Shown here one piece after another: positions 2,235 to 25,174 of a DNA stretch of 64,000 nucleotides. Source of the DNA: Maribacter caenipelagi (GTDB lineage Bacteria; Bacteroidota; Bacteroidia; Flavobacteriales; Flavobacteriaceae); NCBI RefSeq assembly GCF_004364175.1, contig NZ_SNZW01000013.1, positions 372,001 to 436,000 of the forward strand, in the 5' to 3' direction. Position 1 is the first letter of the stretch. The number at the start of each line of letters is the position of its first letter. The notes under the pieces are model-generated. The model did not search any database, had not been told where the DNA came from, and worked only from the letters and a program-made list of their open reading frames with translations. A program made the translations under genes and the position numbers.

Positions 2235-2277
2235 ACAAGGTATATTTAAAAAGCGATTTGTTTAATGATAAAAATCA
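2235..2277 (-). promoter_or_regulatory. FNR-type operator (TGATAAAAATCA, 2266-2277) with -7 element
   Basis: The 12-mer fits TGAY-N4-RTCA and sits inside the palindrome AATGATAAAAATCATT. The -7 candidate TACCTTGT (complement, 2242-2235) starts 29.5 bp from the operator centre, as at the other ten sites. It faces the CheB/CheR hybrid. The -7 match is weak (four of six fixed bases). Confidence 0.6.
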
Positions 2278-2351
2278 TTTATTAACAGCAGATATTTCTT
2301 CATTTTAAATTTGCAGTTAACCTTTTAATAAAACATCTACCAGTCATATTA

Positions 2352-2744
2352 TTACATGTATTTTGTAAGAAAATTAAAAAATTCCTTTTTTAGATCTGCA
2401 TAGATTTGCCGTTGGGTTTCCATCTGATTTCTAAATTCTATATGTTTTTTGGTAAGTACCGTGTCCATTGATTCTTGACCTGTTTTTGACTGACCTGCAA
2501 TACGGGTTTCATGCTTTTCTATAGTTTCTTGAAGTTTATCGATTATGCCTTCATGAAGTATAAATTCATTTTGGTAATGTTCTAACTGCGCCAATACTTC
2601 CTTGTTTGTCCATCGCTGTATTAATTCGCTTAATCGATTTTTGAAAGATTTTAACTCATCTTCCCAAAAAGCAAGTTCACTATGCCATTGTTTATGTTCA
2701 AAATGTAAATCTTCATTACTAAGTACTTCGTTAATTGTTTTCAT
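2352..2744 (-). CDS. small coiled-coil protein, function unknown
   Basis: A 130-residue protein, almost entirely charged and helical (many Glu, Lys, Gln and Leu in heptad-like spacing), with no signal peptide or membrane segment. It follows ftsH by 66 bp on the same strand with no obvious terminator between, so it is probably the second gene of the ftsH operon and shares its operator. I do not recognise a family. A partner or substrate adaptor of the protease is conceivable, but only from position. Confidence 0.7.
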   Translation of the reverse strand: MKTINEVLSNEDLHFEHKQWHSELAFWEDELKSFKNRLSELIQRWTNKEVLAQLEHYQNEFILHEGIIDKLQETIEKHETRIAGQSKTGQESMDTVLTKKHIEFRNQMETQRQIYADLKKEFFNFLTKYM

Positions 2745-2810
2745 ATTATTAGTATTTAAATTAGTTCTCTAGTTCGTTTATTGATTTTAATTCTATTATC
2801 ATTCTTTTTG

Positions 2811-4769
2811 TTATTGTTGCTTTTCCACTAATTCTTTTAGTTCTCGTTTGCCAAGCAAATCTTCCAAACTATCTTTTTCTACCACTTCTTGTTCTAATAA
2901 GAGTTGGGCAAGTTTTTCAAGTTTATCTCTATGTTTTAATAATAGGCTTTTTGTTCTCTCATAAGCGGTAGTAATTAATTCTTGCACTTCTTTATCTATA
3001 AGTTTCGCCATTTCTTCACTATATGGTTTGCTTAACATTTGTTCATTTTGCCCTGTAGAATCGTAAAAACTGATAGGTCCTATTTCTTTATCCAAACCAT
3101 AATAGGCAACCATTGCATAGGCTTGCTTGGTTACTTTTTCAAGATCATCTAAGGCACCGGTAGATATTTCGTCAAAAATGATTTCTTCTGCTACTCGCCC
3201 GCCCAATGATGCACAAATTTGATCCATGAATTGTGATTTGGTTACTATTTGGCGCTCTTCTGGTAAATACCAAGCAGCGCCCAAAGATTTTCCTCGCGGA
3301 ATTATAGAAACCTTAAACAATGAATCTACATGCTTTAAATACCAACTAGCAACTGCATGACCAGCTTCGTGGTGGGCCACTATTTCTTTTTCTTTGGCAG
3401 AAATGATCTTGCTTTTTCGCTCTAACCCTCCAATTACACGATCTCTTGCTTCCATAAAATCTGCATGTTCTACTTCTTTTTTGTTCTTTCTGGCTGCAAT
3501 TAAGGCAGCTTCATTGCAGATATTGGCAATATCTGCTCCAGAAAAACCCGGACTCAGTTTGGCAAGTAATGAGCCATCAACATTCTTTGATAGTTTTAAA
3601 GGGCGAAGATGTACACCGAAAATTTCTTCTCGTTCTTCTTTGGTAGGTAGTTCCAAATAAATATGGCGATCAAAACGACCAGGTCGTAAAAGTGCCTTGT
3701 CCAAAACATCTGGTCGATTGGTTGCCGCCAATACAATAACACCGGTGTTTTTTCCAAAGCCATCAAGTTCTGTAAGCAATTGATTTAAGGTACTTTCTCT
3801 TTCGTCATTTGCTTGAAAGGCATTTATTTTTCCACGAGAACGGCCAACGGCATCAATTTCGTCGATAAAAACAATACTAGGGGCTTTTTCCTTTGCTTTT
3901 TTAAACAGGTCGCGAACACGTGAAGCACCGACCCCAACGAACATTTCTACAAACTCAGAACCTGAAATGGAGAAAAAAGGTACCTGGGCTTCACCGGCCA
4001 CTGCTTTGGCCATTAATGTTTTTCCTGTTCCGGGTGGGCCAACTAGCATTACACCTTTTGGAATTTTAGCACCTAGTTTGGTATACCTTTCTGGGTTCTT
4101 TAGAAAATCTACCACCTCCATTACTTCGGCTTTGGCCTCTTTAAGACCGGCAATGTCATTAAAGGTAAAACTACTTTTTGTGTCTTTCTCTGTTAATTTG
4201 GCAGTAGATTTTCCAAAATTAAATAATGTGCCTCCTGTAGAACTTCCACTTCCCAGTCTTCTTAAAAGGTACATCCAGAATAGAAATATGAAGATAAGAG
4301 GCAATAGCCATGTGAGAATATTTGTCCAAGAAGTTTGGCTTTTATATTGTACATCTATTAGCTCTTCTTTAGAAAAATCTTGTTGGGCCTTTTGTAATTT
4401 GCTTTCAAAAGTTTCTACAGACCCTATGTTCATTCTAAAGTGCGGACCTATTTTATTATTAAAAAATCCATCTGTAATCCATTTATATTTTTCTTTTTCA
4501 AAAAGCTCTGGTTTAATGTAAATATCTGCAACCTCTTTATTGATGACCACAATCTTAGCTACATCATGTTCTGCCAAAATTTCTTGCTCAAAAGTTGACC
4601 ATCCTATTTCTCTAGTTTTATTGGTGCTTGAGGCCGTTATGTAAAAAACGATCATTAGTATAAACAATATGATGTAGAACCAGTTATAGCCATAGTCACC
4701 ATATGGTGGTTTCGTATTTCTATTTTTGTAGTGTTGATTCTTATCTTCTGTATTATTCGAATTTTTCAT
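2811..4769 (-). CDS. ftsH: ATP-dependent zinc metalloprotease FtsH
   Basis: Membrane-anchored AAA+ protease that degrades membrane and regulatory proteins. 652 residues. Two N-terminal membrane segments (about 30-48 and 148-168) flank a periplasmic domain. Walker A GPPGTGKT is at about 244-251, Walker B FIDEID at about 301, then the second region of homology ending GRFDR. The zinc motif HEAGH is at about 467-471. The N-terminus is full of Asn and Lys. Placement in a stress cluster suggests a second, stress-induced FtsH, but the rest of the genome would be needed to show a housekeeping copy. The operator at 4838-4849 faces it. Confidence 0.97.
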
Positions 4770-4806
4770 TCCTTATAGAATATTGCTCTCTAACTTATTA
4801 TAGGTT

Positions 4807-4880
4807 CAAAACTATTTCAATAGAATTGGTCATAAAATGATTCAGGTCATTTACAACCTCTACATATTCGGCTTCTTTTG
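4807..4880. promoter_or_regulatory. bidirectional FNR-type operator (TGATTCAGGTCA, 4838-4849) with two -7 elements
   Basis: One palindromic 12-mer lies between the divergent ftsH and lipoprotein genes. On the minus strand TAGTTTTG (4814-4807) is a perfect TAnnTTTG. On the plus strand TTCTTTTG (4873-4880) fits all but the A. Both begin exactly 29.5 bp from the operator centre, which puts the operator near -41 for both start sites. The same 12-mer recurs at 14771. Confidence 0.75.
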
Positions 4881-4899
4881 TTGTATAAAATTCAAAGTG

Positions 4900-5304
4900 A
4901 TGGATAGCAACCAAGAGAACAAATCATTGATGATATTTATAATCTTGTTGATTGTACTATTCTTGGCCAGTTGTGGCCCCGTAGTATTATCAACTAGAAT
5001 AGGAGAGCCACCACCGCCGTGGTTCTATCCAAATAGATTGGAGGTTGTTAGGTATGTATATTTTCCTGAATATAGTTTTTATTATGATCTAACTGCTAGG
5101 GCATATATTTATTTAGATGGTGGTGTTTGGGTTAGGCGCAATGTACTGCCCGTTAGATACCGAAATATCAATTTAAATAAAGCAAGGTATGAGCGTGTTC
5201 GTAATTATAACGATGAAAATATTCGTAGATATCATCAAGAAAATAATACAAATAGGGGTAGGAGTAATAGGACTGTGCCTCGTTCAAGTACAAGAAGAAA
5301 TTAA
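4900..5304 (+). CDS. lipoprotein with Arg/Asn/Tyr-rich C-terminus, function unknown
   Basis: 134 residues from the ATG at 4900. A longer reading from 4837 would begin inside the operator and upstream of the predicted start site, so I reject it. The N-terminus MIFIILLIVLFLASCGP is a lipoprotein signal with Cys lipobox. A Pro-rich stretch follows (PPPPWFYP), then a Tyr-rich middle with YIYLDGGVWVRR, and an Arg/Asn-rich basic tail. It is probably exported and anchored in a membrane. It forms a likely operon with the next lipoprotein. No family recognised. Confidence 0.8.
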   Translation: MDSNQENKSLMIFIILLIVLFLASCGPVVLSTRIGEPPPPWFYPNRLEVVRYVYFPEYSFYYDLTARAYIYLDGGVWVRRNVLPVRYRNINLNKARYERVRNYNDENIRRYHQENNTNRGRSNRTVPRSSTRRN

Positions 5305-5322
5305 TCTATAAATATGTAAATC

Positions 5323-5805
5323 ATGAAAACTCAATTAATTCTAATACTGGTATTACTTTTTACAGCCTGTAAAGGGCAAGAAAAAGAACCAATGACCAAT
5401 GAAATAGAAAAAGATTCGATTGATGCCCCTAAACCTAAACGTTCTTGGAATGTTAATAGGGAATATGATGAACAGGGCAATTTAATTAGATATGATTCTG
5501 TTTACTCGTATTCATATACCAACATTAAAGGTGATTCTATTAAAGTAAATTTAGATAGTATAATGGGTTCTTTTAGATCTTACTTTAAAGAAAATACACC
5601 TTTAGAATGGAAAAATGATTTCTCATTTTTTCCAAAGAGCGATTCTCTTTTTATGCGAGATTTTTTTAGGGACGATTATTTCTTTGATCGCTGGGAAAGA
5701 CAACCTATTGAAATGGAAGAAATGATGAAAAGAATGGACTCTACAAGAAACGCATTCTTAAAAAGATTTCATCCAGGGCTCATAGAATCTAAAGAAAAAG
5801 ATTGA
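5323..5805 (+). CDS. acidic lipoprotein, function unknown
   Basis: 160 residues. Signal MKTQLILILVLLFTACKGQ with the lipobox Cys at 16, then a hydrophilic, acidic domain with Tyr-Asp-Ser repeats and a methionine-rich stretch near the end. It starts 18 bp after the previous stop, so the two lipoproteins are very likely co-transcribed from the operator at 4838. No catalytic motif visible and no family recognised. Confidence 0.75.
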   Translation: MKTQLILILVLLFTACKGQEKEPMTNEIEKDSIDAPKPKRSWNVNREYDEQGNLIRYDSVYSYSYTNIKGDSIKVNLDSIMGSFRSYFKENTPLEWKNDFSFFPKSDSLFMRDFFRDDYFFDRWERQPIEMEEMMKRMDSTRNAFLKRFHPGLIESKEKD

Positions 5806-5843
5806 TTAGACTTAGTGTTTAAAACTACGCTGATCTTTAAAAA

Positions 5844-6650
5844 TTATTTTATGGCTGGCATGATCATTAAAGGTACTTCAGTCTTAAAGTTCATATTTCG
5901 AATAATTGGTTCACTTATCAATTTTTTGAAAAAACTGTGTTCAGTTTTGAGAAAAACGACCATACCAATATTTTTATAGTCTTTTTCCAAATCTTTTAAG
6001 GTTGCCGTAACAGAACTCTTTTTCTTGACCTTTATAAAACGATGCTTGGTTTTCTTTAAATATAGATCAAGTAGTTCTTTGTTTGATTCTTGTTCGTTTT
6101 CAAGCTTCTTTTTAGAATTAACGTATACAATGTTTATTATCGAACCCCATAGTGAAGCTATTTTTATAATTGGGGACAATTCTGCAGGTTTAAAAGTATG
6201 TTTATAATCATTTGCAAAAAGAATATCATCGGGTATATCATAGTCATATTCTCCAGGTACGGCAATAATTGTGCTGCTGTTGATATTTTTTAAAACACTG
6301 GTGGTAACACTTCCCATGAATACATCTTGTACGGCAGAAAAACCTGTGGTCCCCATAAAAACGAATTGAATATCTTTTTCAAAAATTGCTCTATCTATAG
6401 CGCCTAGAGCTGTGTCAGATACCAGAATAGTTTCAAAAGTATGTTTGGCACTTTTTGTAGCTTCTAGTCTTTTATGCAACGCATCTAATTCAATACTTGC
6501 ATCAAATTTGGTTCCTGTTTCAGATGGTACTAGGTAATATGCATGTAATATGTAAAATGTGCATTGTTCACGTTCAAAAAGATAAATGGCATAATCAATG
6601 GCATTTTGCGAGTTTTTTGAAAAATCTGTAGGTAGTAGTATACTGTGCAT
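5844..6650 (-). CDS. universal stress protein, two tandem Usp domains
   Basis: 268 residues from the ATG at 6650 (MHSILLPTDFS). The TTG at 6659 lies almost at the predicted transcription start, so the ATG is preferred. The first Usp domain (about 1-140) keeps the ATP-binding pattern G-2X-G-9X-G-S (GTTGFSAVQDVFMGSV). The second (about 145-268) has lost it, with charged residues instead. Tandem Usp proteins are cytoplasmic and accumulate in starvation and low oxygen. Promoter with operator at 6697-6708. Confidence 0.9.
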   Translation of the reverse strand: MHSILLPTDFSKNSQNAIDYAIYLFEREQCTFYILHAYYLVPSETGTKFDASIELDALHKRLEATKSAKHTFETILVSDTALGAIDRAIFEKDIQFVFMGTTGFSAVQDVFMGSVTTSVLKNINSSTIIAVPGEYDYDIPDDILFANDYKHTFKPAELSPIIKIASLWGSIINIVYVNSKKKLENEQESNKELLDLYLKKTKHRFIKVKKKSSVTATLKDLEKDYKNIGMVVFLKTEHSFFKKLISEPIIRNMNFKTEVPLMIMPAIK

Positions 6651-6665
6651 GGTCTTCAATTTTTT

Positions 6666-6708
6666 TAAAAGTAACTAGGTCAGTTATGTAAAACCATGAT
6701 TTTAATCA
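6666..6708 (-). promoter_or_regulatory. FNR-type operator (TGATTTTAATCA, 6697-6708) with -7 element for uspA
   Basis: The palindrome core TGAT-TTTA-ATCA has the exact FNR core spacing. The -7 candidate TACTTTTA (complement, 6673-6666) starts 29.5 bp from the centre, predicting a start site about 12 nt before the ATG at 6650. A further half-site, AGGTCA, lies within the spacer at 6678-6683. Confidence 0.65.
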
Positions 6709-6756
6709 GCTGGTTCTGTATAACATCTTACTTAATACATTAAAACAGGAGTGAAA

Positions 6757-6799
6757 TGATCTTCATCATTTTAAGACAAGAAGGTATTCGTCAATTTTA
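6757..6799 (+). promoter_or_regulatory. FNR-type operator (TGATCTTCATCA, 6757-6768) for the VOC gene
   Basis: A symmetric site flanked as AAATGATCTTCATCATTT. At the standard 29.5 bp lies CAATTTTA (6792-6799), a weaker -7 match that keeps the central TTT. The predicted start site is about 35 nt before the ATG at 6838. Confidence 0.55.
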
Positions 6800-6837
6800 T
6801 CATCAGTAAAAAAATAGTATTACCTAAAATTAATAAG

Positions 6838-7203
6838 ATGGCTTCAATCATTCATTTTAATATTTCTGCAGAAGAAGTGCTAAGGGCCAAAAGTTTTTAT
6901 GAAAATTTATTTGGTTGGAAAATAGAAAAATTCCCTAAAGGACCAACGGAATATTTTTTAATTGAAACCTTGGCGAATACCGGTGAAAAAGGAGTAGGAG
7001 GCGGTATTACTAAAAGACAAAAAACTGAACAGCAAATTACCAATTTTATTGAAGTAGATTCAATTGATGAAGCTATTGCAAAAGTTAAGGAACTTGGAGG
7101 CGAAATCGTTGATCCAAAATCAGTTATTGTCAATAGAGGATTCGTGGCAAGGTGTAAGGATACCGAGGGGAATATTTTTGGGTTAATGGAAATGGTGAAT
7201 TAA
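6838..7203 (+). CDS. VOC (glyoxalase/bleomycin-resistance fold) family protein
   Basis: 121 residues, a single vicinal-oxygen-chelate module. It has the usual opening HFNISAEEVLRAKSFYENLFGWKIE, the central GGGI turn, and the end DTEGNIFGLME. Members bind a metal and act on small oxygenated molecules, or bind drugs. The substrate cannot be read here. The short single-domain form would act as a dimer. Its own operator lies 70 bp upstream, so it belongs to the stress cluster. Confidence 0.88.
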   Translation: MASIIHFNISAEEVLRAKSFYENLFGWKIEKFPKGPTEYFLIETLANTGEKGVGGGITKRQKTEQQITNFIEVDSIDEAIAKVKELGGEIVDPKSVIVNRGFVARCKDTEGNIFGLMEMVN

Positions 7204-7265
7204 ATGCCAGCTTTGCCAAAAAGGGAATACGTTTGCTATGGTTATTTGATATCATAGTAACATAC

Positions 7266-7308
7266 TGACCTAGGTCATTTTCAAACTTTTTTATTAGACG
7301 TAGTTTTA
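7266..7308 (+). promoter_or_regulatory. FNR-type operator (TGACCTAGGTCA, 7266-7277) with -7 TAGTTTTA
   Basis: A perfect 12-bp palindrome, identical to the site at 10779. TAGTTTTA (7301-7308) starts 29.5 bp from the centre. It drives the sigma-like gene and the permease behind it. Confidence 0.7.
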
Positions 7309-7378
7309 AAATAATAGGTTGTTAATATATCTGACAATTTAAAGAATTGATATAATGAAATTATAAGACTTGACTTAT

Positions 7379-8074
7379 ATGGCAAAGACCAAAGATCTAA
7401 ATACCGAAAAACTAGAATATGACTTTCAACAATTTTATCAAAAATTGGAAGATTTTAATTATGATTTAAAAGAATTTATTCATGGTAGCTTAAAGGCTTC
7501 AGAAAACCAAGGTCTTCTTGATAAAGGCTATTATAAAGCTGATGAAATTCTTGATGAAATCTATATAGAGATTTACGAAAATTATTCTTTAATTTCAGAT
7601 ATATCTGAATTTCAACGATTACTTTTTAGAGCGGGAATCAATAAACTGGAAACGATAAAGTCTCAAGAAGTGCCAGATGATATTACCTATCATTCTTTAT
7701 TAAAGGCAGAATTAAAAGCTTTAAATGAAAAATTTACTACAGCCGGTGATGGAGACCGTATAATGTTAGAGGAATTAGATGATATTTCATACGTTCAAAA
7801 TAGAGGTTGGCTAGAGAATATTTATTTATATGAACCATTAGAAAGACAGTTGGTCAGTACACTGTGTTTAGATGAAGCCGCCCTGCTATCTGATGAGAAA
7901 AGAAAGTTATTATGGGTATTGTATTCAACCATTCCAGAAAAAAGTAAAACCGTGGTAGAGTTGCTGGTTTTTGGCAAACAGAATTTAAAAACTATAGCTG
8001 AAATATTAGATGTGCCACAAGATTTTGTAGATAAAATTATATTCAAGGTCAAAGAGAGATTTAGGTTGGTGTAA
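7379..8074 (+). CDS. sigma-70-like protein (uncertain)
   Basis: 231 residues from the ATG at 7379 (an in-frame TTG at 7370 is less likely). The N-terminal half is acidic and helical, with KADEILDEIYIEIYEN and FQRLLFRAGINKLE resembling sigma region 2. The C-terminus (NLKTIAEILDVPQDFVDKI) looks like the region-4 helix-turn-helix. The DNA-binding residues are not convincing enough to name a family, so this could be a sigma factor or a diverged relative. It precedes the permease by 21 bp and has its own operator. Confidence 0.6.
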   Translation: MAKTKDLNTEKLEYDFQQFYQKLEDFNYDLKEFIHGSLKASENQGLLDKGYYKADEILDEIYIEIYENYSLISDISEFQRLLFRAGINKLETIKSQEVPDDITYHSLLKAELKALNEKFTTAGDGDRIMLEELDDISYVQNRGWLENIYLYEPLERQLVSTLCLDEAALLSDEKRKLLWVLYSTIPEKSKTVVELLVFGKQNLKTIAEILDVPQDFVDKIIFKVKERFRLV

Positions 8075-8095
8075 TTTTCTAAACCGTTTTGACCT

Positions 8096-9241: not shown

Positions 9242-9913
9242 TCAATTAATTATTTTTTTAATTTGAGTATCATTGGGTTGCCTTATTTTTTGGTACAAAG
9301 TTAAGTCTAGGGCAATGAACCAAACAATAAATAGGGCAAAGGTGATTTTTTGTACTACGGGCAGTATATGTATAATAATTCCCGTTTCATAAATGTAGTA
9401 ATTGGAAAGAAATATAATAATGCAAACTACACCTAATAGAAATAGTTTTTTATAGCTTGTCTTATATAGTTCTATACAGCAAGTGATAAAGGCAACTAAA
9501 CCAAATATGCCTGCTATGCGAACAACTATATCATGATAATCAAGTACTAAAAACAAAATTGAAAACAATGATAAATACCCTGACCCACCCATCAATTTTT
9601 GGATGTTATTTTTTCTTTTAAATAATTTGGGGAGTAAAGTCCATAGTAGTAATATGCTGGTACATAATAAGCTTAATGCTATAATAGCATATAACCGGGC
9701 TTTGTTGGTTTCACCGTTAATCGCATTTAGATCTAATAAATCACAAAGATAATTGTGCCAAAAGCTAAAACGGTTTAAATCTGGGTCTATCCAAGATCCT
9801 CCAGGGTATTTTTTGGCAGCAATAACATAGAAAATAATAAAGAATCCAATACCTATTAATGATAAAAATAATAGTAGATGCTCATAGGGTTCCAATACTG
9901 GCTTAGTCTTCAT
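9242..9913 (-). CDS. six- to seven-pass membrane protein, function unknown
   Basis: 223 residues with hydrophobic stretches near residues 12-30, 75-92, 105-123, 130-147, 155-172 and 185-205. The loop after the first helix carries PGGSWIDPDLNRFSFWHNYLCDLLD. The order recalls the DUF998-type membrane proteins, but I cannot confirm that. It ends convergent with the permease. I see no operator at its start. The hairpin at 9956-9984 lies just upstream. Confidence 0.75.
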   Translation of the reverse strand: MKTKPVLEPYEHLLLFLSLIGIGFFIIFYVIAAKKYPGGSWIDPDLNRFSFWHNYLCDLLDLNAINGETNKARLYAIIALSLLCTSILLLWTLLPKLFKRKNNIQKLMGGSGYLSLFSILFLVLDYHDIVVRIAGIFGLVAFITCCIELYKTSYKKLFLLGVVCIIIFLSNYYIYETGIIIHILPVVQKITFALFIVWFIALDLTLYQKIRQPNDTQIKKIIN

Positions 9914-10359: not shown

Positions 10360-10520
10360 CTTCATAAAGAATAGAATTTGTTATAGCCTTTTATCAATCT
10401 TTAAATTAACCTATTGCTAAATTGATTCAAAAATTAATGTAGATTACGACATCATCTATTTCTCTACTATGATCTGTACTATCTTGCGATAATTCAAATC
10501 AATGCCTTATAATTTTGTAA

Positions 10521-10550
10521 GAAACCAAGTCATCGCAATGACTTGGTTTC
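10521..10550 (-). terminator. hairpin 4 of the RNA array (13-bp perfect stem, CGCA loop)
   Basis: Positions 10521-10533 pair perfectly with 10538-10550. There is no good U tract on either side, so it may be a structural or processing element rather than a terminator. Confidence 0.55.
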
Positions 10551-10747
10551 TAAGAAGTCGGTATTTTTTCAAATTACACTTACAATGATCCTTTTTTATG
10601 ATTATTTCTAAACACATTTAGAGATCAAATGGTCTATTGAATTAGTAGTACCTTCTTCTTTATAAATTGAACCTTGGTCCCCCCGAGCAAGATTCAAATG
10701 ATTATTAATTTCAAAGAACTTATTATAATTGATGAATAATTATAGTG

Positions 10748-10790
10748 CTAAAATAATACGGGCATTACCTTTTTAAAATGACCTAGGTCA
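10748..10790 (-). promoter_or_regulatory. FNR-type operator (TGACCTAGGTCA, 10779-10790) facing the RNA array
   Basis: The perfect palindrome overlaps the htrA stop codon. The -7 candidate TATTTTAG (complement, 10755-10748) begins 29.5 bp from the centre and matches five of six fixed bases. Leftward there is no protein gene for about 835 bp, only the hairpin array. Confidence 0.65.
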
Positions 10791-11834
10791 GTTTGGTGAA
10801 AATTTTTCAGTTTTCGGAATTATAAAAGCCAAATTCATGATTTTACCTTTTCTTAAAATTTTAGCTTTCAAGGTGTCACCGAATTGAAGATTATGTATGA
10901 TAGCCCAAGCTTTGGTCATGTTTTTCTCATTGGTTAATGGTACATCATTAAAAGAAAGTAGAACATCACCACCAACAGCTATAGTATTGCCGTCTATCTG
11001 TAAGTGATAATATGATTCTTTCAAGCCTAGGTTTGCTCCTAATGATTGCGGAGCCACTTTTTGTACCAATACACCGGCAATTTGTGGTAAATTAAATATT
11101 TCTGCTAATGACCCGGTAATGAAATAAGCCTCAATTCCCGTCCACAGAGGTCTTTCATCACAAAGTAGTTCTTTTGCTATGTTAGAAGTAGCAGCGAAAG
11201 ATATGCCTTGAAAACCTTTAGAATGACTTATAATAAAGCTGGCAATACCGATTACCTCTCCGTTCATATTAAATAATGGTCCGCCAGAACTACCCTCATT
11301 TACCGCGGCGTCGGTTTGTAAGAAATCGGTTTTTATGAACCCACTAGATACTTTTTCGGGAGAATATTTGCCACTTACATAACCTACGGATAAAGAATAT
11401 CCTAGACCAAATGGCGAACCGATAACAAATACCTGGTCTCCAATTTTAACTTTATCCGAATCTGCCAAAGTAGCAACCGAAAGTGGAGTTTTTTTTAATT
11501 TGGTCAATCTAATTAATGCAACATCTGCCGTAGGATATGAGTATAGAACTTTAGCAGGCACTTCCTCGCCATCTGAAAAAACCACTTTAATAATAGCTGC
11601 ATTTTGTACAATATGTGCAGCAGTCATTATATCGCCGTCATTTGAGATAACAAAGCCTGATCCAAGACCTTCTAAGGTGAGCAAGGTTTTAAAATTACCT
11701 TGGCTATATATTTCTGGTTGCCAAGTTTTTATGAGTACAACAGAAGCATTGGCCTCTTCATACAATTTGCTTATGTTTTGAGAAGTAATTTGTTTGGTAT
11801 AGAATATGAAAAGTATAATTAGAATTATTTTCAT
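10788..11834 (-). CDS. HtrA/DegP-type serine protease, one PDZ domain
   Basis: 348 residues. Signal peptide about 1-18 (MKIILIILFIFYTKQITSQ), so exported. Trypsin-like domain with the catalytic triad His74 (TAAHIV), Asp104 (DVALIRL) and Ser183 (GSSGGPLFN), then one PDZ domain from about 235 to 335. Periplasmic HtrA proteases remove misfolded envelope proteins. Only one PDZ domain and a moderate length set it apart from the longer DegP-type. An operator 154 bp upstream may drive it with a leader of about 120 nt. Confidence 0.93.
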   Translation of the reverse strand: MKIILIILFIFYTKQITSQNISKLYEEANASVVLIKTWQPEIYSQGNFKTLLTLEGLGSGFVISNDGDIMTAAHIVQNAAIIKVVFSDGEEVPAKVLYSYPTADVALIRLTKLKKTPLSVATLADSDKVKIGDQVFVIGSPFGLGYSLSVGYVSGKYSPEKVSSGFIKTDFLQTDAAVNEGSSGGPLFNMNGEVIGIASFIISHSKGFQGISFAATSNIAKELLCDERPLWTGIEAYFITGSLAEIFNLPQIAGVLVQKVAPQSLGANLGLKESYYHLQIDGNTIAVGGDVLLSFNDVPLTNEKNMTKAWAIIHNLQFGDTLKAKILRKGKIMNLAFIIPKTEKFSPN

Positions 11835-11956: not shown

Positions 11957-11999
11957 GTAAACTAAGATTAGCGATTTTAGTGTGGAATGATTTAAGTCA
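11957..11999 (-). promoter_or_regulatory. FNR-type operator (TGATTTAAGTCA, 11988-11999) upstream of htrA
   Basis: Flanked as GAATGATTTAAGTCATTC. Leftward TAGTTTAC (11964-11957) sits at the standard distance, though the last two bases miss. Rightward, at the same distance, there is no -7 match, so htrA is the likelier target than the response regulator. The rest of 11835-12165 shows nothing else I can name. Confidence 0.55.
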
Positions 12000-12165
12000 T
12001 TCAGTTGCTGGCGAAACCCATTTCCGTAATTTATAATCGAATAATATTCAATGAAATTAGAGTATTTACCAGATTTCGATTAATTAATGGTATTATTCCT
12101 ACTTAATATGTAGTTTTTTTGTATCTTTTTATATCCTCATAAGCTTGAACTTAATAGGTTGTATT

Positions 12166-12552
12166 ATGATCAGTATTCTTATAATTGAAGATGAAAATGA
12201 TATACGGGAAAATACTTCTGAACTTTTAGAACTGGAAGGCTACACTACACTAACAGCTGCTAATGGGAAAATTGGCTTGGAAAAGATTAAATCTAATATG
12301 CCAGATTTGATTTTATGTGATCTTCGCATGCCTGAAATGGATGGTTTTACGGTATTAAGTCATCTTGGTCAATATCCTGATTTAAAAAGAATTCCATTTG
12401 TTTTTTTTAGTGCTAAATCTGAAAAATTGGATATTAAGACTGGCATAGAAGCCGGAGCAGACGGCTATTTAGTAAAGCCTTTTGAGTTTAAAGATTTGTT
12501 GGCCATTATTGAAAAATGTCTTCATAAAATTAAGCGTTCTTCATTACAATAA
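12166..12552 (+). CDS. single-domain response regulator
   Basis: 128 residues from the ATG at 12166. An in-frame TTG at 12145 would add MNLIGCI and is unlikely. It is a receiver domain only: acidic pair EDE near residues 8-10, phosphoacceptor Asp52 in ILCDLRMPEMDG, and the conserved Lys in YLVKPF. With no output domain, it probably acts by protein contact, for example in a relay or with the CheB/CheR hybrid kinase. Its promoter is unclear. Confidence 0.9.
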   Translation: MISILIIEDENDIRENTSELLELEGYTTLTAANGKIGLEKIKSNMPDLILCDLRMPEMDGFTVLSHLGQYPDLKRIPFVFFSAKSEKLDIKTGIEAGADGYLVKPFEFKDLLAIIEKCLHKIKRSSLQ

Positions 12553-12607: not shown

Positions 12608-12650
12608 TGATTCAAATCATTTAGCTTTTTTGCTGCAATAGGTACATTGG
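12608..12650 (+). promoter_or_regulatory. FNR-type operator (TGATTCAAATCA, 12608-12619) with -7 TACATTGG
   Basis: The -7 candidate (12643-12650) matches five of six fixed bases at exactly 29.5 bp from the operator centre. The predicted start site is about 14 nt before the ATG at 12668. Confidence 0.65.
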
Positions 12651-12667: not shown

Positions 12668-13840
12668 ATGTATACTGCAGAAAAACTACCGTTGTTAAAA
12701 ACTACATTTGAATCTTTAATGGCAAAAAAGGCCTTTCATTGTGTGTCCATATATATATCAATGGATAAAAAGGGGATGCAACAAAATCTTCATTTGGCCC
12801 AAGCTAAATTGAAAAATTGTTTAAAAGAGGTTAGCACGGTATTGTTGCAATATCAATTGCACCAAAAGGAAGTAGAAGATTATCTTGAACCAATTACTCA
12901 ATTGTTAGATAGAGTGGATTTATGGAGAAATCCATCTGACGGACTGGTAATTTTTTTAGATCCTGAAACGGGATTGCAGTATTTTAAAATACCAATTTCA
13001 TTTGAAACACAAACATATGTAGCTAATCATTTTTATCTAAAACCACTATTACCGATTTACACTAATGATGGTACGTATTACCTACTTGAAATTAGTAGAG
13101 ATTATGTTAAACTCTACAAAGCATCAAGATATCAATTTAAAGACCTATTTGTTGAAGATTTTGCGCCAAAGCGTTTAGAAGAAGCTGTTGGGTTTGATTA
13201 TAGACCAAAAGTTTTACAATTTAGAAATGCAAATAATTTGAGTAGCGCAGGGGTGTTTCATGGTCATGGAGAAGGAAAGGATGATGATAAAAAAGAGATG
13301 GTAAAATTTTTTAGGGCTTTGGACAAGGGGCTTAAGAAGGTCATTGAAAACCAGAATGCACCATTATTATTAGCCTGTACAGACTATTTGTATAGTATTT
13401 ATAAAGAGACAAGTACCTATAAAAATGTTTATGATGGGCATTTGGGTGGTGATCCAGAATTTAAGGTGAAGACTTCATTACATCAAGATTCTTGGAATTT
13501 AATAGCACCCTATTTTAAAAAACATGAATCTGAAATGATACAAAAATTTAAAGATTTAAGTTATTCGCAAAAAACCTCATACGAAATTGGAGAAATACTT
13601 AGAGCAACTTTTCAAGGTACTGTAGAGGTGCTGTTCGTTGAAAATGAAACCGATGTTTTTGGTACGTTCGATTTAAAAACAAATAGAGTATCCGTAGATA
13701 AAACAAAAGAAATAAGTAATACATCTTTAACCAATTTAGCTGCTTTAGAATGTTATAAGCGAGGTGGTAAGGTATACCTTTTGCCTACTGAGCAAATGCC
13801 GATGAAACACAGTAATTTAAACGCCATATTTAGGTATTGA
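12668..13840 (+). CDS. baeRF-like protein (bacterial relative of eRF1-fold release factors)
   Basis: 390 residues, soluble, no signal peptide. The layout fits the baeRF proteins: an N-terminal domain with VSIYISM, a middle domain beginning YYLLEISRDYVKLYKAS, and a C-terminal domain with AALECYKRGGKVYLLP and the ending NAIFRY. Members are predicted to act on ribosomes or RNA in place of, or alongside, release factors. Biochemistry is scarce. The middle part holds a His/Gly/Asp/Lys-rich loop (HGHGEGKDDDKK). Its own operator places it in the stress cluster. The family assignment is from memory of sequence layout. Confidence 0.7.
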   Translation: MYTAEKLPLLKTTFESLMAKKAFHCVSIYISMDKKGMQQNLHLAQAKLKNCLKEVSTVLLQYQLHQKEVEDYLEPITQLLDRVDLWRNPSDGLVIFLDPETGLQYFKIPISFETQTYVANHFYLKPLLPIYTNDGTYYLLEISRDYVKLYKASRYQFKDLFVEDFAPKRLEEAVGFDYRPKVLQFRNANNLSSAGVFHGHGEGKDDDKKEMVKFFRALDKGLKKVIENQNAPLLLACTDYLYSIYKETSTYKNVYDGHLGGDPEFKVKTSLHQDSWNLIAPYFKKHESEMIQKFKDLSYSQKTSYEIGEILRATFQGTVEVLFVENETDVFGTFDLKTNRVSVDKTKEISNTSLTNLAALECYKRGGKVYLLPTEQMPMKHSNLNAIFRY

Positions 13841-14650: not shown

Positions 14651-14770
14651 TAACCAATCGGTCTTTATTGATATTATTTTAAAATAATTAAAGAAATTAG
14701 GCTTGATCACATTTATTTTGAATTCGTATATCTGACAGTTATTTTTTGTGACAAAATAAAATATACAGAG

Positions 14771-14813
14771 TGATTCAGGTCATTTTACGGATCTTTTATT
14801 CTTACGATTTTTA
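14771..14813 (+). promoter_or_regulatory. FNR-type operator (TGATTCAGGTCA, 14771-14782)
   Basis: Identical to the 12-mer at 4838. At the standard distance lies GATTTTTA (14806-14813), a weak -7 match that keeps TTT. The predicted start is about 18 nt before the ATG at 14835. Confidence 0.6.
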
Positions 14814-14834
14814 AGTAATTAATAAACAGAAGTT

Positions 14835-15473
14835 ATGGTGTATACAAAAATATTTGATCAGAATGTTGAAGCTTATGAGCAATGGTACCAGGATTACCCT
14901 GAGGTATTTGAATCAGAACTTTTGGCGATAAAAGAACAGTTACAGAAACTGCCCGAGAACCTGAAAGGTATTGAAGTGGGTTTGGGAACAGGTAGATTTT
15001 CAGAACCTTTAGGTATAAAAGAAGGAGTAGAGCCTTCAAAAGAAATGGCTGCATTGGCTATTAAAAGAGGAGTTTCGGTTTTAAACGGTTATGCCGAACA
15101 GTTACCTTTCGGAGATCTAAGATTCGATTTTGTTCTCTTTGTTACAGTTTGTCATTTAGATAACATAAAACACGCTTTTGCCGAAGCATATAGGGTTCTT
15201 AAACCTGCAGGAGCAATAGTAATTGGTTTTTTGGATAGCGAAAGAAGTATAGCCCAGCAATATTTAGAAAAGCGCCATAGAAGTACGTTTTTTGCAAAGG
15301 CAAATTTTTATACAGTCAGTAGAATAGAGGTCCTTTTGAAAGAAGCAGGCTTTAAAAGTTTAGAATTCAATCAAACACTATTTGGCAATTTAGATGACAT
15401 AAAAGAGGTTCAAATGTCTAAAGAAGGTTTTGGAGAAGGATCTTTTGTTGTTGTAAAAGCCATTAAAAAATAG
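14835..15473 (+). CDS. class I SAM-dependent methyltransferase
   Basis: 212 residues. SAM motif I is GIEVGLGTGRFSEPLG. The acidic residue after beta-2 is in GVEPSKEM. Motif II is PFGDLRFDFVLFVTVCHLD, followed by RVLKPAGAIVIGF. This is the Methyltransf_11 pattern typical of small-molecule methyltransferases. The substrate is unknown. It has its own operator and stands alone. Confidence 0.88.
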   Translation: MVYTKIFDQNVEAYEQWYQDYPEVFESELLAIKEQLQKLPENLKGIEVGLGTGRFSEPLGIKEGVEPSKEMAALAIKRGVSVLNGYAEQLPFGDLRFDFVLFVTVCHLDNIKHAFAEAYRVLKPAGAIVIGFLDSERSIAQQYLEKRHRSTFFAKANFYTVSRIEVLLKEAGFKSLEFNQTLFGNLDDIKEVQMSKEGFGEGSFVVVKAIKK

Positions 15474-15533
15474 CGGAAGGCATATAAGTTGAAATGTTCA
15501 TATTATTTAAATAACTCGATTAGAAATTTTTGA

Positions 15534-16175
15534 TCAATTATTAGTAACTTCTTTAGAATTGAAATAATCTAATATTTGAATGGCTTTTTGGTCAGTAACC
15601 TCCTCGAAATTTTTATAAAATTGCCCTACAGCTCTAAAATTATCTGGTTGTAAAATACAAATGACTTCTTCTACATGTTCTAAATTACTTATTTTATAAA
15701 TTGCAGATGGTGGTGCAACGGGTATTGCAATTATAATTTTAGAAGGTTTTTGTTTGTGTACCAAAGCTATTGTTGCCAATAGGGTGTTACCAGTGGCAAT
15801 ACCATCATCAACAATTATAACTGTCTTTTTTTGTAAATTTAAAGGAGAGCGATTTTTATAATATTGTTTGTACCGTTCTTTTAGTGATTTACGAATACGC
15901 TCTGTCTCTCTATCAATATAATTTTTATCAAAAACCATTGAGTTTGATAGTATTATACTTTCAAGGCTAACTGCGCCGATCGCGTATTCCTTATTATTTG
16001 GATGCCCTATTTTTTTTGTTAATACTACATCTAATGGCGCATTTAGAAACTTTGCTACAGATGCTCCAATTGGTAGTCCGCCTCTTGGTATTGCCAAGAT
16101 TATTACTTCTTCGTCTTTGTATTTTGCTAATAGTATAGCTAGTTGACTGCCTGCATCATTTCTATCTTCAAACAT
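15534..16175 (-). CDS. phosphoribosyltransferase-fold protein
   Basis: 213 residues from the ATG at 16175, which lies 11 nt after the hydrolase stop. A longer frame to 16214 would overlap the hydrolase and is rejected. The PRPP-binding motif is VIIVDDGIATGNTLL, the N-terminal loop is LAIPRGGLPIGASVA, and the ending NFRAVGQFYKNFEEV is typical of this non-purine branch. The true substrate is unknown. It forms a two-gene operon with the hydrolase. The same two domains occur fused in some actinobacterial dormancy proteins. Confidence 0.88.
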   Translation of the reverse strand: MFEDRNDAGSQLAILLAKYKDEEVIILAIPRGGLPIGASVAKFLNAPLDVVLTKKIGHPNNKEYAIGAVSLESIILSNSMVFDKNYIDRETERIRKSLKERYKQYYKNRSPLNLQKKTVIIVDDGIATGNTLLATIALVHKQKPSKIIIAIPVAPPSAIYKISNLEHVEEVICILQPDNFRAVGQFYKNFEEVTDQKAIQILDYFNSKEVTNN

Positions 16176-16186
16176 TGTTTTGATTT

Positions 16187-16834
16187 TTAACTTTTTAGAT
16201 ATGTAGCAAACCAATTAGCCGATATTTGCGCCACTTCATTTAATTTGCCCGGTTCTTCGAATAAGTGACTTGCCTTTGGTATTATTTCTAGTTTGCGTTG
16301 GCAGTGTAGTTTTTGATAAGCTTTTTCATTAAGTTCAATTACAACATCATCATTGCCGCCTACTATGAGTAATGTGGCAGCTGTTACCTTTGATATGTCG
16401 TTTATGGCAAGGTCTGGTCGCCCACCTCTAGAAACTACCGCTTTAATTAGTTCTTCATAAAAGGCAGCGGCCCTTAATGCCGAGGCTGCACCTGTACTTG
16501 CTCCAAAATATCCAATCGATAATTTTTTTGTTTCTTTTAGTTGTTGTACCCATTGCGTTACGTCAATAAGCCGTAGGGTCAGTAAATCTATATCAAATCT
16601 ATTTTTGTATATGCTATCTTCATCTTCAGTCAATAAATCAAAAAGTAAAGTAGCCAGGTCATTTTTTTGTAATACTTCAGCAACAAAGTTGTTACGAGGA
16701 CTAAGACGGCTACTACCGCTACCATGAGAAAAAATGACCAGACCTATAGCATTTTTAGGAATAACTAAGTCTCCTTTTAGAATAACTCCGTCTAACTGAA
16801 TATTGACAGCTTTATGGTTGAAATTATTTTCCAT
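16187..16834 (-). CDS. alpha/beta hydrolase of dienelactone-hydrolase type
   Basis: 215 residues, cytoplasmic. Oxyanion region SHGSGSS, nucleophile elbow GYFGASTGAASAL (Ser in GASTG), acid in IVGGNDDVV, and catalytic His in ASHLFEEPG, so the triad is complete. It is the first gene of the operon with the phosphoribosyltransferase. The operator lies 55 bp upstream. The substrate is unknown. Confidence 0.9.
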   Translation of the reverse strand: MENNFNHKAVNIQLDGVILKGDLVIPKNAIGLVIFSHGSGSSRLSPRNNFVAEVLQKNDLATLLFDLLTEDEDSIYKNRFDIDLLTLRLIDVTQWVQQLKETKKLSIGYFGASTGAASALRAAAFYEELIKAVVSRGGRPDLAINDISKVTAATLLIVGGNDDVVIELNEKAYQKLHCQRKLEIIPKASHLFEEPGKLNEVAQISANWFATYLKS

Positions 16835-16857
16835 TTTTAGCTTTTTTCACAAAGACT

Positions 16858-16900
16858 TAAATGTAATGGAAGAAGGGAATTTGACAAATGATCCAAGTCA
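16858..16900 (-). promoter_or_regulatory. FNR-type operator (TGATCCAAGTCA, 16889-16900) with -7 TACATTTA
   Basis: The -7 element (complement, 16865-16858) fits TAnnTTTA at exactly 29.5 bp from the operator centre. The predicted start lies about 20 nt before the hydrolase ATG. I see nothing else between 16900 and 17082. Confidence 0.7.
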
Positions 16901-17082
16901 TTTATACTTTTTCAATAAAATAATCTAAGAGCACAAAAGCCTGTTTTATAACTTTAGTTCGTAAGAATCTATAATGTAGAAGGATCATTTTGTGTTCAAT
17001 TGATTTTCACAGCAATGAGTTAAGGTAAGAGAAGCTCTTTTTTCTTTAGAATTACGGTTCAAACTTTATACATATATTCCAC

Positions 17083-18063
17083 TTAAAGTTTGTTTAACTT
17101 TTTTTCTTGCTTCTCTAATTTTCTGAAGTAGCCTCTAGTTAAAAAATTATGTTTTAGTGCTTCCATGTTTTCGTTGAATCTTTCTGTTCCTTGCTCAATA
17201 TTTTGCATGCTTCGCTCAAGTTGATTTACAAATAATGAGTCTTTAGCCAGGTAAGAAATAGCACCTTGTCCATCATTTATTTCTGCAATAATAAGGTTTA
17301 GGTTTTTAGACATTTGATCAATTTCTGAAGAGGTAGTCTCCAAGTTTTGAATAACATTTTTTATTCTTCTACCAGAAAGGGTATCATTTAATAAAACATC
17401 CGCAGTACTTTCCTTAAAATTAAATTGACCTACTATATCGTTCAAATTGGTAATAGTTGCATTTGCTTTATAACTTGTGTTTTTTAAATTAATAATAGTT
17501 TTATGCAAGTCGTTGGCCATTATGGTATCATTTAATAACCTACCTAGCGTTCCTTGCCCATTTGTAAGGGTCTTTGAAATCTTTAACAGATCGGCAGTTA
17601 ATAATGCGGCATTTTCATTGGTAATGCTCAATGTACTCATCATATCTTGTGTGCCTATTTTGTTTGAAGATAATAGCTGATCTCCAGGGCTTATTTTAGA
17701 AGAAATACCTTCACCTGGAATAATATTGATTAACATACTGCCAACCAGACCATTTGTGCCGATACTGGCAATGGCATTTTTTTTAATATGGTTACGCATA
17801 TTATCTTGTATAACCATACGAACCTGTATTGTGGTGTCGTTGATCATTTCTATGCCATTTACAGTGCCAACATTAATGCCGGAAAAGCGAACGTTATTTC
17901 CATTTTGGAGTCCGGTGGCATTTTTAAATACTGCCGTAATTTCAAATGTTTTACTGAACATATTCTGTCGATTTCCAATAAGATATGCTGCAATTAGAAG
18001 TAGTATAGTACCTAATACTACAAAAATGCCTAACCTTAAGTTTTCCAATTTTGTATTTGCCAT
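17083..18063 (-). CDS. mlaD: MlaD-like MCE-domain protein of a lipid transporter
   Basis: 326 residues. One N-terminal membrane anchor (about 10-28, GIFVVLGTILLLIAAYLIG), a single MCE domain (about 38-120) with VRFSGINVGTVNGIEM, then a long helical C-terminal part rich in Asn, Leu and Thr (for example GTLGRLLNDT) that in this family may form a channel. It would bind phospholipids on the periplasmic side. Third gene of the mlaE-mlaF-mlaD operon. No mlaC or mlaB is visible. Confidence 0.9.
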   Translation of the reverse strand: MANTKLENLRLGIFVVLGTILLLIAAYLIGNRQNMFSKTFEITAVFKNATGLQNGNNVRFSGINVGTVNGIEMINDTTIQVRMVIQDNMRNHIKKNAIASIGTNGLVGSMLINIIPGEGISSKISPGDQLLSSNKIGTQDMMSTLSITNENAALLTADLLKISKTLTNGQGTLGRLLNDTIMANDLHKTIINLKNTSYKANATITNLNDIVGQFNFKESTADVLLNDTLSGRRIKNVIQNLETTSSEIDQMSKNLNLIIAEINDGQGAISYLAKDSLFVNQLERSMQNIEQGTERFNENMEALKHNFLTRGYFRKLEKQEKKLNKL

Positions 18064-18067
18064 AATC

Positions 18068-18865
18068 TTATTTTTTAAAGAATGCTTCTACTTTTGGGTC
18101 TGTCGATGCCGATAATTCTGAATAAGTGCCTTCGGCATAATTAATGCCATCTACTAAAAGAACCATTCGTTCAGAAATTACTCTAGCACAATCCACATCA
18201 TGAGTGATTATTAAAGAACTGGTACCGTACTTTTTTTGAATACTTCTCATTAACTCAATTATTTCTTTTGCCGTTATTGGATCTAAACCACTTGTGGGCT
18301 CGTCGTATAGAATAATCTTTGGTTTCAAAATAAGTGTTCGTGCTAATGCTACACGCCTTTTCATACCACCGGAAAGTTCATCTGGCATTAAATTCATGGT
18401 ATGTGCCAAACCAACATTTTCCAAGGCTTCTAAAACTAGGGGAGTTGTATCTTTTACAATCCCCAATTTGTCTCGGTGCCGTCGCATTGGGAATTCTAAA
18501 TTCTCACGAACGGTCATGGAATCATACAAGGCACTGCCTTGAAATAGAAAACCGATATCTGAACGTAATTCATCTAAGGTTTGTCTATCTAACGTTGATA
18601 TTTCCTTGCCCATTACTTCAATATAGCCACTGTCAGGAGCCATTAACCCTACCAGACATTTGATCATTACCGATTTTCCAGAACCAGATTTTCCCATAAC
18701 AACTAGATTTTCACCTTCGTAAAGCACTAAGTTGAATCCATTTAAAACATGGTTCTCACCAAAACTCTTAGTAACGTTATTTAAGCGAATGACCGCTTTT
18801 TGTTCAAAATTGTCTTTCGATTTTTGATGTTCATTAGTTTTTATTTTGGGTGTATCCTTATTCAT
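18068..18865 (-). CDS. mlaF: MlaF-like ABC ATPase
   Basis: 265 residues from the ATG at 18865, directly after the mlaE stop. An alternative ATG at 18877 overlaps mlaE by about 10 bp. Walker A GKSGSGKS, signature LSGGM, Walker B IILYDEPTSGLDP, H-loop IITHD. The LSGGMKRRVALART stretch is typical of MlaF. It powers lipid movement between the membranes together with MlaE and MlaD. Confidence 0.93.
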   Translation of the reverse strand: MNKDTPKIKTNEHQKSKDNFEQKAVIRLNNVTKSFGENHVLNGFNLVLYEGENLVVMGKSGSGKSVMIKCLVGLMAPDSGYIEVMGKEISTLDRQTLDELRSDIGFLFQGSALYDSMTVRENLEFPMRRHRDKLGIVKDTTPLVLEALENVGLAHTMNLMPDELSGGMKRRVALARTLILKPKIILYDEPTSGLDPITAKEIIELMRSIQKKYGTSSLIITHDVDCARVISERMVLLVDGINYAEGTYSELSASTDPKVEAFFKK

Positions 18866-18866
18866 A

Positions 18867-19670
18867 TCATAGTTCATAGAAAATATCAGAAACGAATACC
18901 GCAATAAAATCGACTATAAATAATAATAGTGATGCCATGACAACGGCCGTGTTTGCAGATATACCAACACCTACTGTTCCTTTTTTACAATAATAGCCCT
19001 TAAAGCAACCTACTAGACCAATTACAAAACCAAAAAAGAATGATTTTATAGTTGCAGGTATTAAATCTCCAAAGCTGAGTGCATCAAAAACGGTATTAAA
19101 ATAGAGTTGAAAAGAAACTTGTCCTTTTAGATTCTCTACTAGCGCCGAACCTAGCAAGGCGATTAAATCTCCAAATACGATTAAAATGGGAATCATTAAT
19201 GTGGTGGCCAGAATTCGTGTTACCACTAAATACTTAAATGGGTTGGTACCAGATACTTCCATTGCATCAATCTGTTCTGTAACCCGCATAGAACCTAATT
19301 CTGCACCTATGCCCGAAGCAATTCTGCCAGCGCAAATTAGGGCGGTAATTACCGGTCCTATTTCCCTAACAATAGAAATACCGACCATATTCGGCATCAT
19401 AGATACTGCCCCAAATTGAATCATTGTAGGTCTAGACTGTAATGTTAGTACCAAACCTATAATAAAACCGGTCATACCTACTAACATTAAAGATCGGTTA
19501 CCCATTTGATAGCACTGTCGTAACAACTCTTTAAATTCAAAAGGCACAGAAAAAAGTTCTTTAAAAAAACGACGTGCGAAAAAAGACAGTTCTCCAATTT
19601 GAATAAAAAACTGTTTTAATCGCCCAAGTATTTTAGATATCTCAAATACTGAGGGTATACTCTCTGCCAT
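18867..19670 (-). CDS. mlaE: MlaE-like permease
   Basis: 267 residues from the ATG at 19670. A TTG at 19676 is inside the -7 element and is rejected. Several membrane segments. The family stretch is EIGPVITALICAGRIASGIGAELGSMRVTEQIDAM, followed by GTNPFKYLVVTRILATTL. It is the inner-membrane part of an Mla-type phospholipid transporter. The predicted transcription start falls on or next to the ATG, so the message may be leaderless. Confidence 0.93.
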   Translation of the reverse strand: MAESIPSVFEISKILGRLKQFFIQIGELSFFARRFFKELFSVPFEFKELLRQCYQMGNRSLMLVGMTGFIIGLVLTLQSRPTMIQFGAVSMMPNMVGISIVREIGPVITALICAGRIASGIGAELGSMRVTEQIDAMEVSGTNPFKYLVVTRILATTLMIPILIVFGDLIALLGSALVENLKGQVSFQLYFNTVFDALSFGDLIPATIKSFFFGFVIGLVGCFKGYYCKKGTVGVGISANTAVVMASLLLFIVDFIAVFVSDIFYEL

Positions 19671-19673
19671 ATT

Positions 19674-19716
19674 CAAATGTAAAAGGAAACTGTTGTTCTT
19701 AAAATGACTAATGTCA
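19674..19716 (-). promoter_or_regulatory. FNR-type operator (TGACTAATGTCA, 19705-19716) with perfect -7 TACATTTG
   Basis: The -7 element (complement, 19681-19674) is a full match to TAnnTTTG at exactly 29.5 bp. The ATG of mlaE at 19670 comes 3 nt after its last base. Confidence 0.7.
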
Positions 19717-25170: not shown

Positions 25171-25174
25171 ATCG

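Follow-up and report, generated by a model that had tools for sequence, protein, structure and literature searches.

What controls the genes at the left end of a 64,000-nucleotide stretch of the Maribacter caenipelagi genome (the window; C2:372001-436000, contig C2 being one of 20 in a genome of 4.28 Mb), and how far does that control extend? Promoter regions there carry the palindrome TGAYN4RTCA, which the first-pass annotation read as an FNR-type operator governing a stress regulon in one 20-kb cluster. The operators are indeed concentrated there, and the cluster proves to be the right quarter of a 79-kb island that also encodes a protein wherein a receiver domain is joined to a Crp-type regulator. 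We consider it quite likely that the island is the core regulon of this island-encoded two-component system, which would switch on most island operons.

Operators and −7 boxes share a fixed spacing

All 11 sites of the first-pass annotation were recovered at the same positions by a pattern search, which gives 12 matches to TGAYN4RTCA in the window; the twelfth, at 2181, falls within a reading frame and lacks a −7 box at the corresponding gap. The 12 operators all fall within the first 20 kb, wherein 1.7 per 20 kb are expected from base composition, and none occurs at 20 to 64 kb, in agreement with the earlier remark that the other 44 kb holds no equally good site. One operator had been described as working in both directions, and it has a −7 octamer on either side. 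In each of the resulting 12 directions the octamer begins 23 bp past the operator (29.5 bp from its center) and carries TT at positions 5 and 6, precisely as first noticed. The full TAnnTTT(A/G) motif is present in 5 of the 12 octamers, and the other seven have four or five of the six consensus letters. The operators, their boxes, and the genes that they are predicted to serve are as follows.

2266..2277, minus strand: operator, −7 octamer TACCTTGT at 2242-2235; promoter of a CheB-CheR-PAS gene (C2:371164-374211, ending left of the window) and of the histidine kinase gene behind it
4838..4849, both strands: two-way operator; minus side, −7 octamer TAGTTTTG at 4814-4807, toward FtsH; plus side, TTCTTTTG at 4873-4880, toward a 155-amino acid protein of unknown type
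6697..6708, minus strand: operator, −7 octamer TACTTTTA at 6673-6666, toward a universal stress protein (Usp) gene
6757..6768, plus strand: operator, −7 octamer CAATTTTA at 6792-6799, toward a glyoxalase-fold gene (6838-7203)
7266..7277, plus strand: operator, −7 octamer TAGTTTTA at 7301-7308, toward a gene for a 234-amino acid protein (7370-8074)
10779..10790, minus strand: operator, −7 octamer TATTTTAG at 10755-10748, toward a likely noncoding RNA
11988..11999, minus strand: operator, −7 octamer TAGTTTAC at 11964-11957, toward an HtrA-like protease gene
12608..12619, plus strand: operator, −7 octamer TACATTGG at 12643-12650, toward a baeRF gene, possibly with a LytTR regulator gene behind
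14771..14782, plus strand: operator, −7 octamer GATTTTTA at 14806-14813, toward a methyltransferase gene (14835-15473)
16889..16900, minus strand: operator, −7 octamer TACATTTA at 16865-16858, toward genes for an alpha/beta-hydrolase (16187-16834) and a phosphoribosyltransferase (15534-16214)
19705..19716, minus strand: operator, −7 octamer TACATTTG at 19681-19674, toward MlaE-ABC ATPase-MlaD (17083-19676); last operator of the island

The same spacing holds over a wider region. Across C2:292-392 kb, which contains 96 operator directions, TAnnTTTR occurs 23 times at a gap of 23 bp and three times in all at the remaining 39 gaps in the 5-44 range. In a control set comprising eight sampled 20-kb stretches and the other 44 kb of the window (8 operators, 16 directions), no TAnnTTTR is found at gap 23, and a looser T...TT motif is present there in 2 of 16 directions; an equal density of pairs was thus not seen in the stretches sampled. 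Genome-wide, TGAYN4RTCA-N{10,36}-TANNTTTR has 67 matches versus 20 for the reversed pattern. Gap 23 accounts for 48 of these matches, and the island contains 23 of the 48. Could the arrangement be due to chance or be a compositional artefact? The operator pattern alone is indeed common, with 317 genome-wide matches versus 240 for its reverse, and for this reason the evidence resides in spacing and clustering. These two features, the conservation described below, and the reversed-pattern, outside-island, and sampled-stretch controls all contradict such an origin, whose probability we regard as negligible.

The operators define an island of stress-related genes

The operator-rich region extends over 78.6 kb (C2:313143-391705) and includes 48 TGAYN4RTCA sites and 78 open reading frames (ORFs) of at least 75 codons. 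It is flanked by 20 kb on the left and 44 kb on the right with no operators, and eight operators were found in 160 kb sampled elsewhere. An operator/−7 pair with at least four of the six box letters is present at 44 of 54 candidate operon heads in the island (39 with at least five letters), compared with 0 of 37 heads outside. Spacing, clustering, and these counts support the proposal that the sites belong to one regulon.

Fourteen of the genome's 30 Usp domain matches fall within the island. Other Pfam matches are to HSP20, the S30AE hibernation factor, a cation P-type ATPase, ribonucleotide reductase, two PfkB kinases, phosphoenolpyruvate (PEP) synthase/pyruvate phosphate dikinase (PPDK), FeoA-FeoB, BON proteins, and a site-2 protease with CBS domains, as well as FtsH, an HtrA-like protease, baeRF, a phosphoribosyltransferase, MlaE/MlaD with an ABC ATPase, kinases, and CheB-CheR; some island ORFs match no Pfam family. 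By analogy, this gene set would fit survival under energy or oxygen limitation. Four of the products encoded in the window were assigned by a Pfam scan as follows.

2811..4769, minus strand: FtsH-type AAA+ M41 protease
5844..6659, minus strand: universal stress protein
10788..11834, minus strand: trypsin-like/PDZ (HtrA-like) protease
12668..13840, plus strand: baeRF (archaeo-eukaryotic release factor) family protein

A stand-alone receiver protein is also encoded in the window (12145-12552, plus strand), adjoining the baeRF and LytTR regulator genes.

Predicted class II promoter layout

Class II promoters of FNR and FixK carry a TGA..TCA palindrome centered at −41.5. A logo of the 42 promoters whose −7 box has at least five of six letters reads A(A/C)TGAYYTARRTCAT(T)(T/G), followed by 21 little-conserved bases and TAnnTTT(A/G). 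In mapped promoters of Flavobacterium psychrophilum, a TAnnTTTG box occupies −12 to −5 (PMC9723704). This box position and the 23-bp gap together place the operator center at −41.5, and thus the operators are predicted, with the position carried over from the F. psychrophilum start-site map, to sit in class II geometry. The earlier suggestion of an operator near −41 joined to a Bacteroidota promoter agrees with this predicted position. The predicted distance between start site and start codon has a median of 20 nt, with 27 of 44 leaders between 10 and 35 nt, and the published median is 24 nt (PMC9723704); negative leader values probably reflect over-extended start codons in the mechanical ORF calls.

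A protein that occupies these sites might repress the island, or merely mark it in a nucleoid-like role, rather than activate it. The evidence consists of site positions alone, and divergent and paired sites occur, both of which are compatible with such a role. In contrast, the fixed center, predicted at −41.5, and the scarcity of a −33 TTG element (found with a spacer of 18-21 bp in only 9 of the 42 promoters) correspond to the layout of an activator-dependent promoter, and we judge repression or marking to be very improbable.

A receiver-Crp protein is the candidate regulator

As stated in the first-pass annotation, the Crp/Fnr protein itself is not encoded in the window. One of the genome's Crp-type HTH genes falls within the island, 25 kb to the left of the window (C2:345657-346721), and its 355-amino acid product has the domain order receiver-cNMP_binding-HTH_Crp (PF00072, E 9.5e-28; PF00027, E 2e-21; PF13545, E 6.1e-15). 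Directly ahead of this receiver-Crp gene is a gene for a multi-PAS histidine kinase (C2:342533-345685), whose promoter region carries a full operator/−7 pair (C2:342182). Judged by its domains, the protein belongs both to the Crp/Fnr family and to the two-component response regulators. A structure predicted at moderate confidence (pLDDT 73.6, pTM 0.44) shows secondary-structure elements arranged as anticipated for a receiver, a beta-roll, a long helix, and an HTH, and no PDB chain spanning both halves was found among 60 of the 328 matched chains.

An alignment of 11 orthologues reveals that D9, D52, T82, and K104 of the receiver, which we take to be the residues of phosphorylation, are invariant (11/11), as are the E and R of the recognition helix, presumably the residues of DNA recognition. 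The N-terminal Cys cluster of FNR is absent, and the only Cys invariant among the 11 orthologues, Cys 51, is part of the receiver. CRP contacts cAMP through Glu72 and Arg82 (CRP numbering), and neither residue is kept here: the aligned positions are Gln (10/11) and Tyr (10/11). Compared with FNR and FixK, then, the island system lacks the N-terminal Cys cluster, has a receiver in front, and uses a TAnnTTTG −7 box instead of a sigma-70 −10 box.

We infer a mechanism of phosphorylation, binding, and activation in which the multi-PAS kinase would phosphorylate the receiver of the adjacent receiver-Crp protein. The phosphorylated dimer would bind A(A/C)TGAYYTARRTCATTT centered at −41.5 and, together with sigma-A at the TAnnTTTG box, would activate most island operons along with the operon of its own kinase and a small RNA gene. 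The assignment of this regulator is strong but inferential, and low oxygen as its signal is a guess made by analogy.

Operator/−7 pairs track the regulator across genomes

A set of 149 Flavobacteriaceae genomes was compared, using thresholds of E 1e-60 for receiver-Crp (reached in 66 of 149) and E 1e-50 for an FNR-type gene. Strict pairs number 621 in these genomes versus 13 for reversed controls. In raw comparisons, made without correction for phylogeny, GC content, or base composition, the mean number of strict pairs is 13.5 in genomes with a close orthologue (n=11), 6.7 in those with the paralogue type only (n=55), and 1.3 in those with neither (n=83). Sorted by gene class, the means are 9.1 with both genes (n=36), 6.2 with receiver-Crp only (n=30), 1.7 with the FNR-type gene only (n=53), and 0.6 with neither (n=30). 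Operators are likewise enriched near the regulator gene (153 versus 12 reversed in 400 kb from nine genomes with an orthologue) and near its paralogue (129 versus 16 reversed in 400 kb from 10 genomes).

The operator core, compared in the same raw manner, tracks the regulator subtype, being TGACCTAGGTCA-like near orthologues and TGATATATATCA-like near paralogues. Position 4 is C in 52 of 80 sites near orthologues (six genomes) versus 17 of 100 near paralogues (10 genomes), wherein G011, G037, and G056 were excluded from the test as having both subtypes close together (C in 27 of 58). G054 has the two subtypes apart and shows both kinds of core: all 4 of its orthologue-proximal sites have C at this position, compared with 3 of the 11 that are close to the paralogue. 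The fact that pair counts track receiver-Crp, and that the core differs by regulator subtype, suggests that the regulator is probably not a classical oxygen-sensing FNR. Of the original reading of an FNR-type operator, the class II TGA/TCA geometry is retained as a prediction, whereas an FNR-type oxygen sensor is no longer the best candidate, given a receiver-Crp protein that has no N-terminal Cys cluster.

A separate FNR-type protein might nevertheless control the island, with receiver-Crp being secondary. One such protein, with N-terminal Cys residues, is encoded at C4:7669, next to genes for a cbb3 oxidase. The initial 110 kb of that contig contains 19 pairs of the same geometry along with cbb3 oxidase and HemN genes and 11 of the 30 Usp domain matches. 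Moreover, the half-sites of the FNR-type and receiver-Crp sets are identical. The cores, however, differ, with Y at position 5 in 35 of 42 C2 sites versus 6 of 19 C4 sites, and genomes that have the FNR-type gene and lack receiver-Crp hold few pairs, as given above. Furthermore, G054 and G056 have such islands, and in each of them the first 45 residues of the five PF13545 proteins found contain no Cys cluster of the FNR kind. FNR as the sole regulator is thus weakened, and we consider control by a separate FNR-type protein unlikely.

Two further sets of sites were observed. At C4:7612-96941 (L027-L032) there is a second set of pairs, having the same geometry and another core, around the FNR-like gene, the cbb3 oxidase genes, and 11 Usp matches. 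At C5:446409-447512 (L018, L033), a paralogous receiver-Crp gene has a kinase gene upstream, a Usp gene downstream, and the same pair geometry. This common geometry on C4 and C5 makes cross-talk likely.

Conservation in relatives

The 80 named loci, kept from the 582 relatives listed by one scan, include Flavobacteriaceae, Hymenobacter, Spirosoma, Pedobacter, Chitinophaga, and Saprospiraceae. These loci hold 425 operators versus 60 reversed in 1.49 Mb, and gap 23 has 116 occurrences of TAnnTTTR, with no other gap between 10 and 39 having more than five. A kinase domain is encoded directly upstream of the regulator in 69 of the 80. Operators are present in the kinase-operon promoters of 60 of 92 loci (reversed control, 5), and a pair lies just downstream of the regulator gene in 36 of 99 cases.

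Homologues of island genes are present in 53 of 99 relatives' loci, and 203 of 396 such homologues have a pair upstream, compared with 0 (reversed), 4 (gap 18), and 11 (gap 28) in controls; the 396 cases include internal operon genes and related Usp queries, and two receiver queries (198 places, no pairs) and a duplicate locus (L143, part of G049) were dropped. L081 is part of G054. Conservation of sites at orthologous genes, one of the checks named in the first-pass annotation, is seen for island homologues and is only partial for the operon heads of the window; taken together, the outcomes of those checks were mostly in favor of that annotation.

Several observations weigh against control of the island by its own receiver-Crp system. 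Ten of the 54 island heads have no pair. Eleven heads in the window have their own site, ten of which have homologues in the fetched loci, and the pair is kept in 16 of 32 cases; for homologues of FtsH, HtrA, and the window Usp it is kept in 0 of 2 each. Of 92 kinase-operon promoters, only 20 (7 of 13 among close orthologues) have the pair at exactly 23 bp, and in non-flavobacterial loci, wherein operators are often present, the pair is rare, with Hymenobacter and Mucilaginibacter having 0 or 1. The uncorrected state of the co-occurrence and core comparisons belongs with these points, as does the likelihood of cross-binding by FNR-type proteins, the half-sites being common to both.

A predicted noncoding RNA downstream of the operator at 10779

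The operator at 10779 appears, from the sequence downstream, to drive a conserved noncoding RNA.

10518..10743, minus strand: predicted noncoding RNA of ~225 nt, with a GTTCTTTG block and a terminator hairpin (10550-10521)

No reading frame longer than 36 amino acids is found within ~0.8 kb downstream of the site. The gene at 9242-9913 was considered as its target and dropped because this ~0.8 kb without a longer reading frame, and hairpins, lie between. A paralogue of the RNA is present at C2:347827 (region L025:15480-15850), and further copies are in L078, L143, L153, L157, L163, L164, L177, L185, and L193. Members of the family share a TTAGCnnTATAATTA-like start region, a GTTCTTTG leader, and a terminator. 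The strict pattern occurs in 7 of 149 genomes (control, 0), and 7 of 7 have receiver-Crp. When the hairpin criterion is omitted, GTTCTTTG lies downstream of 9 of 528 pairs (three in one locus, L078 of Winogradskyella thalassocola), compared with ~1 expected by overall frequency. Covariation supports 12 of 13 terminator pairs among 12 copies, and it is not counted as proof because those copies were chosen by a perfect hairpin. An Rfam search with the RNA gave no match up to E 1. The arrangement resembles that of FnrS, the FNR-controlled small RNA of Escherichia coli, in that a small RNA would be under the same regulator as stress genes; the island RNA is ~225 nt and has the GTTCTTTG leader.

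Relation to known dormancy regulons

The mixture of Usps, HSP20, PfkB, P-type ATPase, and ribonucleotide reductase in the island recalls the DosR regulon of Mycobacterium tuberculosis, whose regulator has a LuxR-type output domain. DosR/DevR and the OsdR protein of Streptomyces coelicolor control two-component dormancy regulons of ~50 genes, including many Usps and heat shock proteins (PMC5069765, PMC6127331). In Streptomyces, the majority of Usp genes are located close to osdRK, and the targets predicted there include PPDK and a zinc alcohol dehydrogenase (PMC5069765, PMC6127331). The Burkholderia cenocepacia low-oxygen-activated (lxa) locus comprises six Usps, an alpha-crystallin heat shock protein, a phosphofructokinase, and a BON-domain protein, and its likeness to DosR in Usps, alpha-crystallin, and phosphofructokinase has been stated; a Crp-type regulator is proposed for it, and FixK, the homologue of that regulator in Burkholderia dolosa, is governed by the FixLJ kinase system (PMC6127331).

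The island likewise has a Usp-rich stress gene set near its regulator, and with lxa it shares the form of a single Usp-rich stress locus with a Crp-type regulator, that of lxa being proposed. It differs from the DosR type in having a Crp output, and the printed GC-rich OsdR operators are unlike its own. In lxa, receiver and Crp activator are separate and induction is by low oxygen, whereas here they are fused and island-encoded, in another phylum and with another −7 promoter. We regard the island as a genuine regulon and as a variant form of Usp-rich dormancy loci, one with a fused regulator. Such regulons are known from actinobacteria and proteobacteria, and this one belongs to Bacteroidota and has a different, fused regulator.

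MalR-like Crp/Fnr proteins have been predicted in a Flavobacteriales genome bin, with carbon-source sensing as their predicted role (PMC8510549); these are of the same order of bacteria and the same protein family, and the part of that report used here mentions neither a receiver fusion nor a stress island. Among the open-licence papers listed, no title or abstract opening describes a receiver-Crp fusion or regulon of this kind in Bacteroidota, which is weak evidence of novelty. A broader view, about as apt to be wrong as right, is that Bacteroidota have a widespread, undescribed kinase and receiver-Crp system that places FNR-like class II promoters under phosphorylation control and, in Flavobacteriaceae, governs portable dormancy islands that have a fixed promoter geometry and include a dedicated small RNA family, as an independent counterpart of DosR. 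The promoter rule is strict enough for target prediction from sequence alone, and it provides a regulator, an operator, and a spacing that can be tested in flavobacterial survival, along with a candidate small RNA.

A tRNA-linked block

To the right of the island lies a tRNA gene.

25174..25248 of the window (C2:397174), minus strand: tRNA-Arg(ACG); the 24 bp of its 3′ end recur at C2:311244-311267, on the left side of the operator island

Seventeen base pairs of the same 3′ end also occur at C2:298359. A Pfam scan of part of the ORFs gave no integrase. In G075, a genome of the same genus, the tRNA and a left-flank match (judged from one 1.5-kb match at 69%) are ~0.9 kb apart, without the ~104-kb block. 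The tRNA repeats and the lack of the block in G075 together suggest that the island was acquired as a block, and they make it an example of an entire regulon collected within a single tRNA-linked unit. In G011, a block on a different contig is collinear with the island in part, and 100 kb there yielded no tRNA gene.

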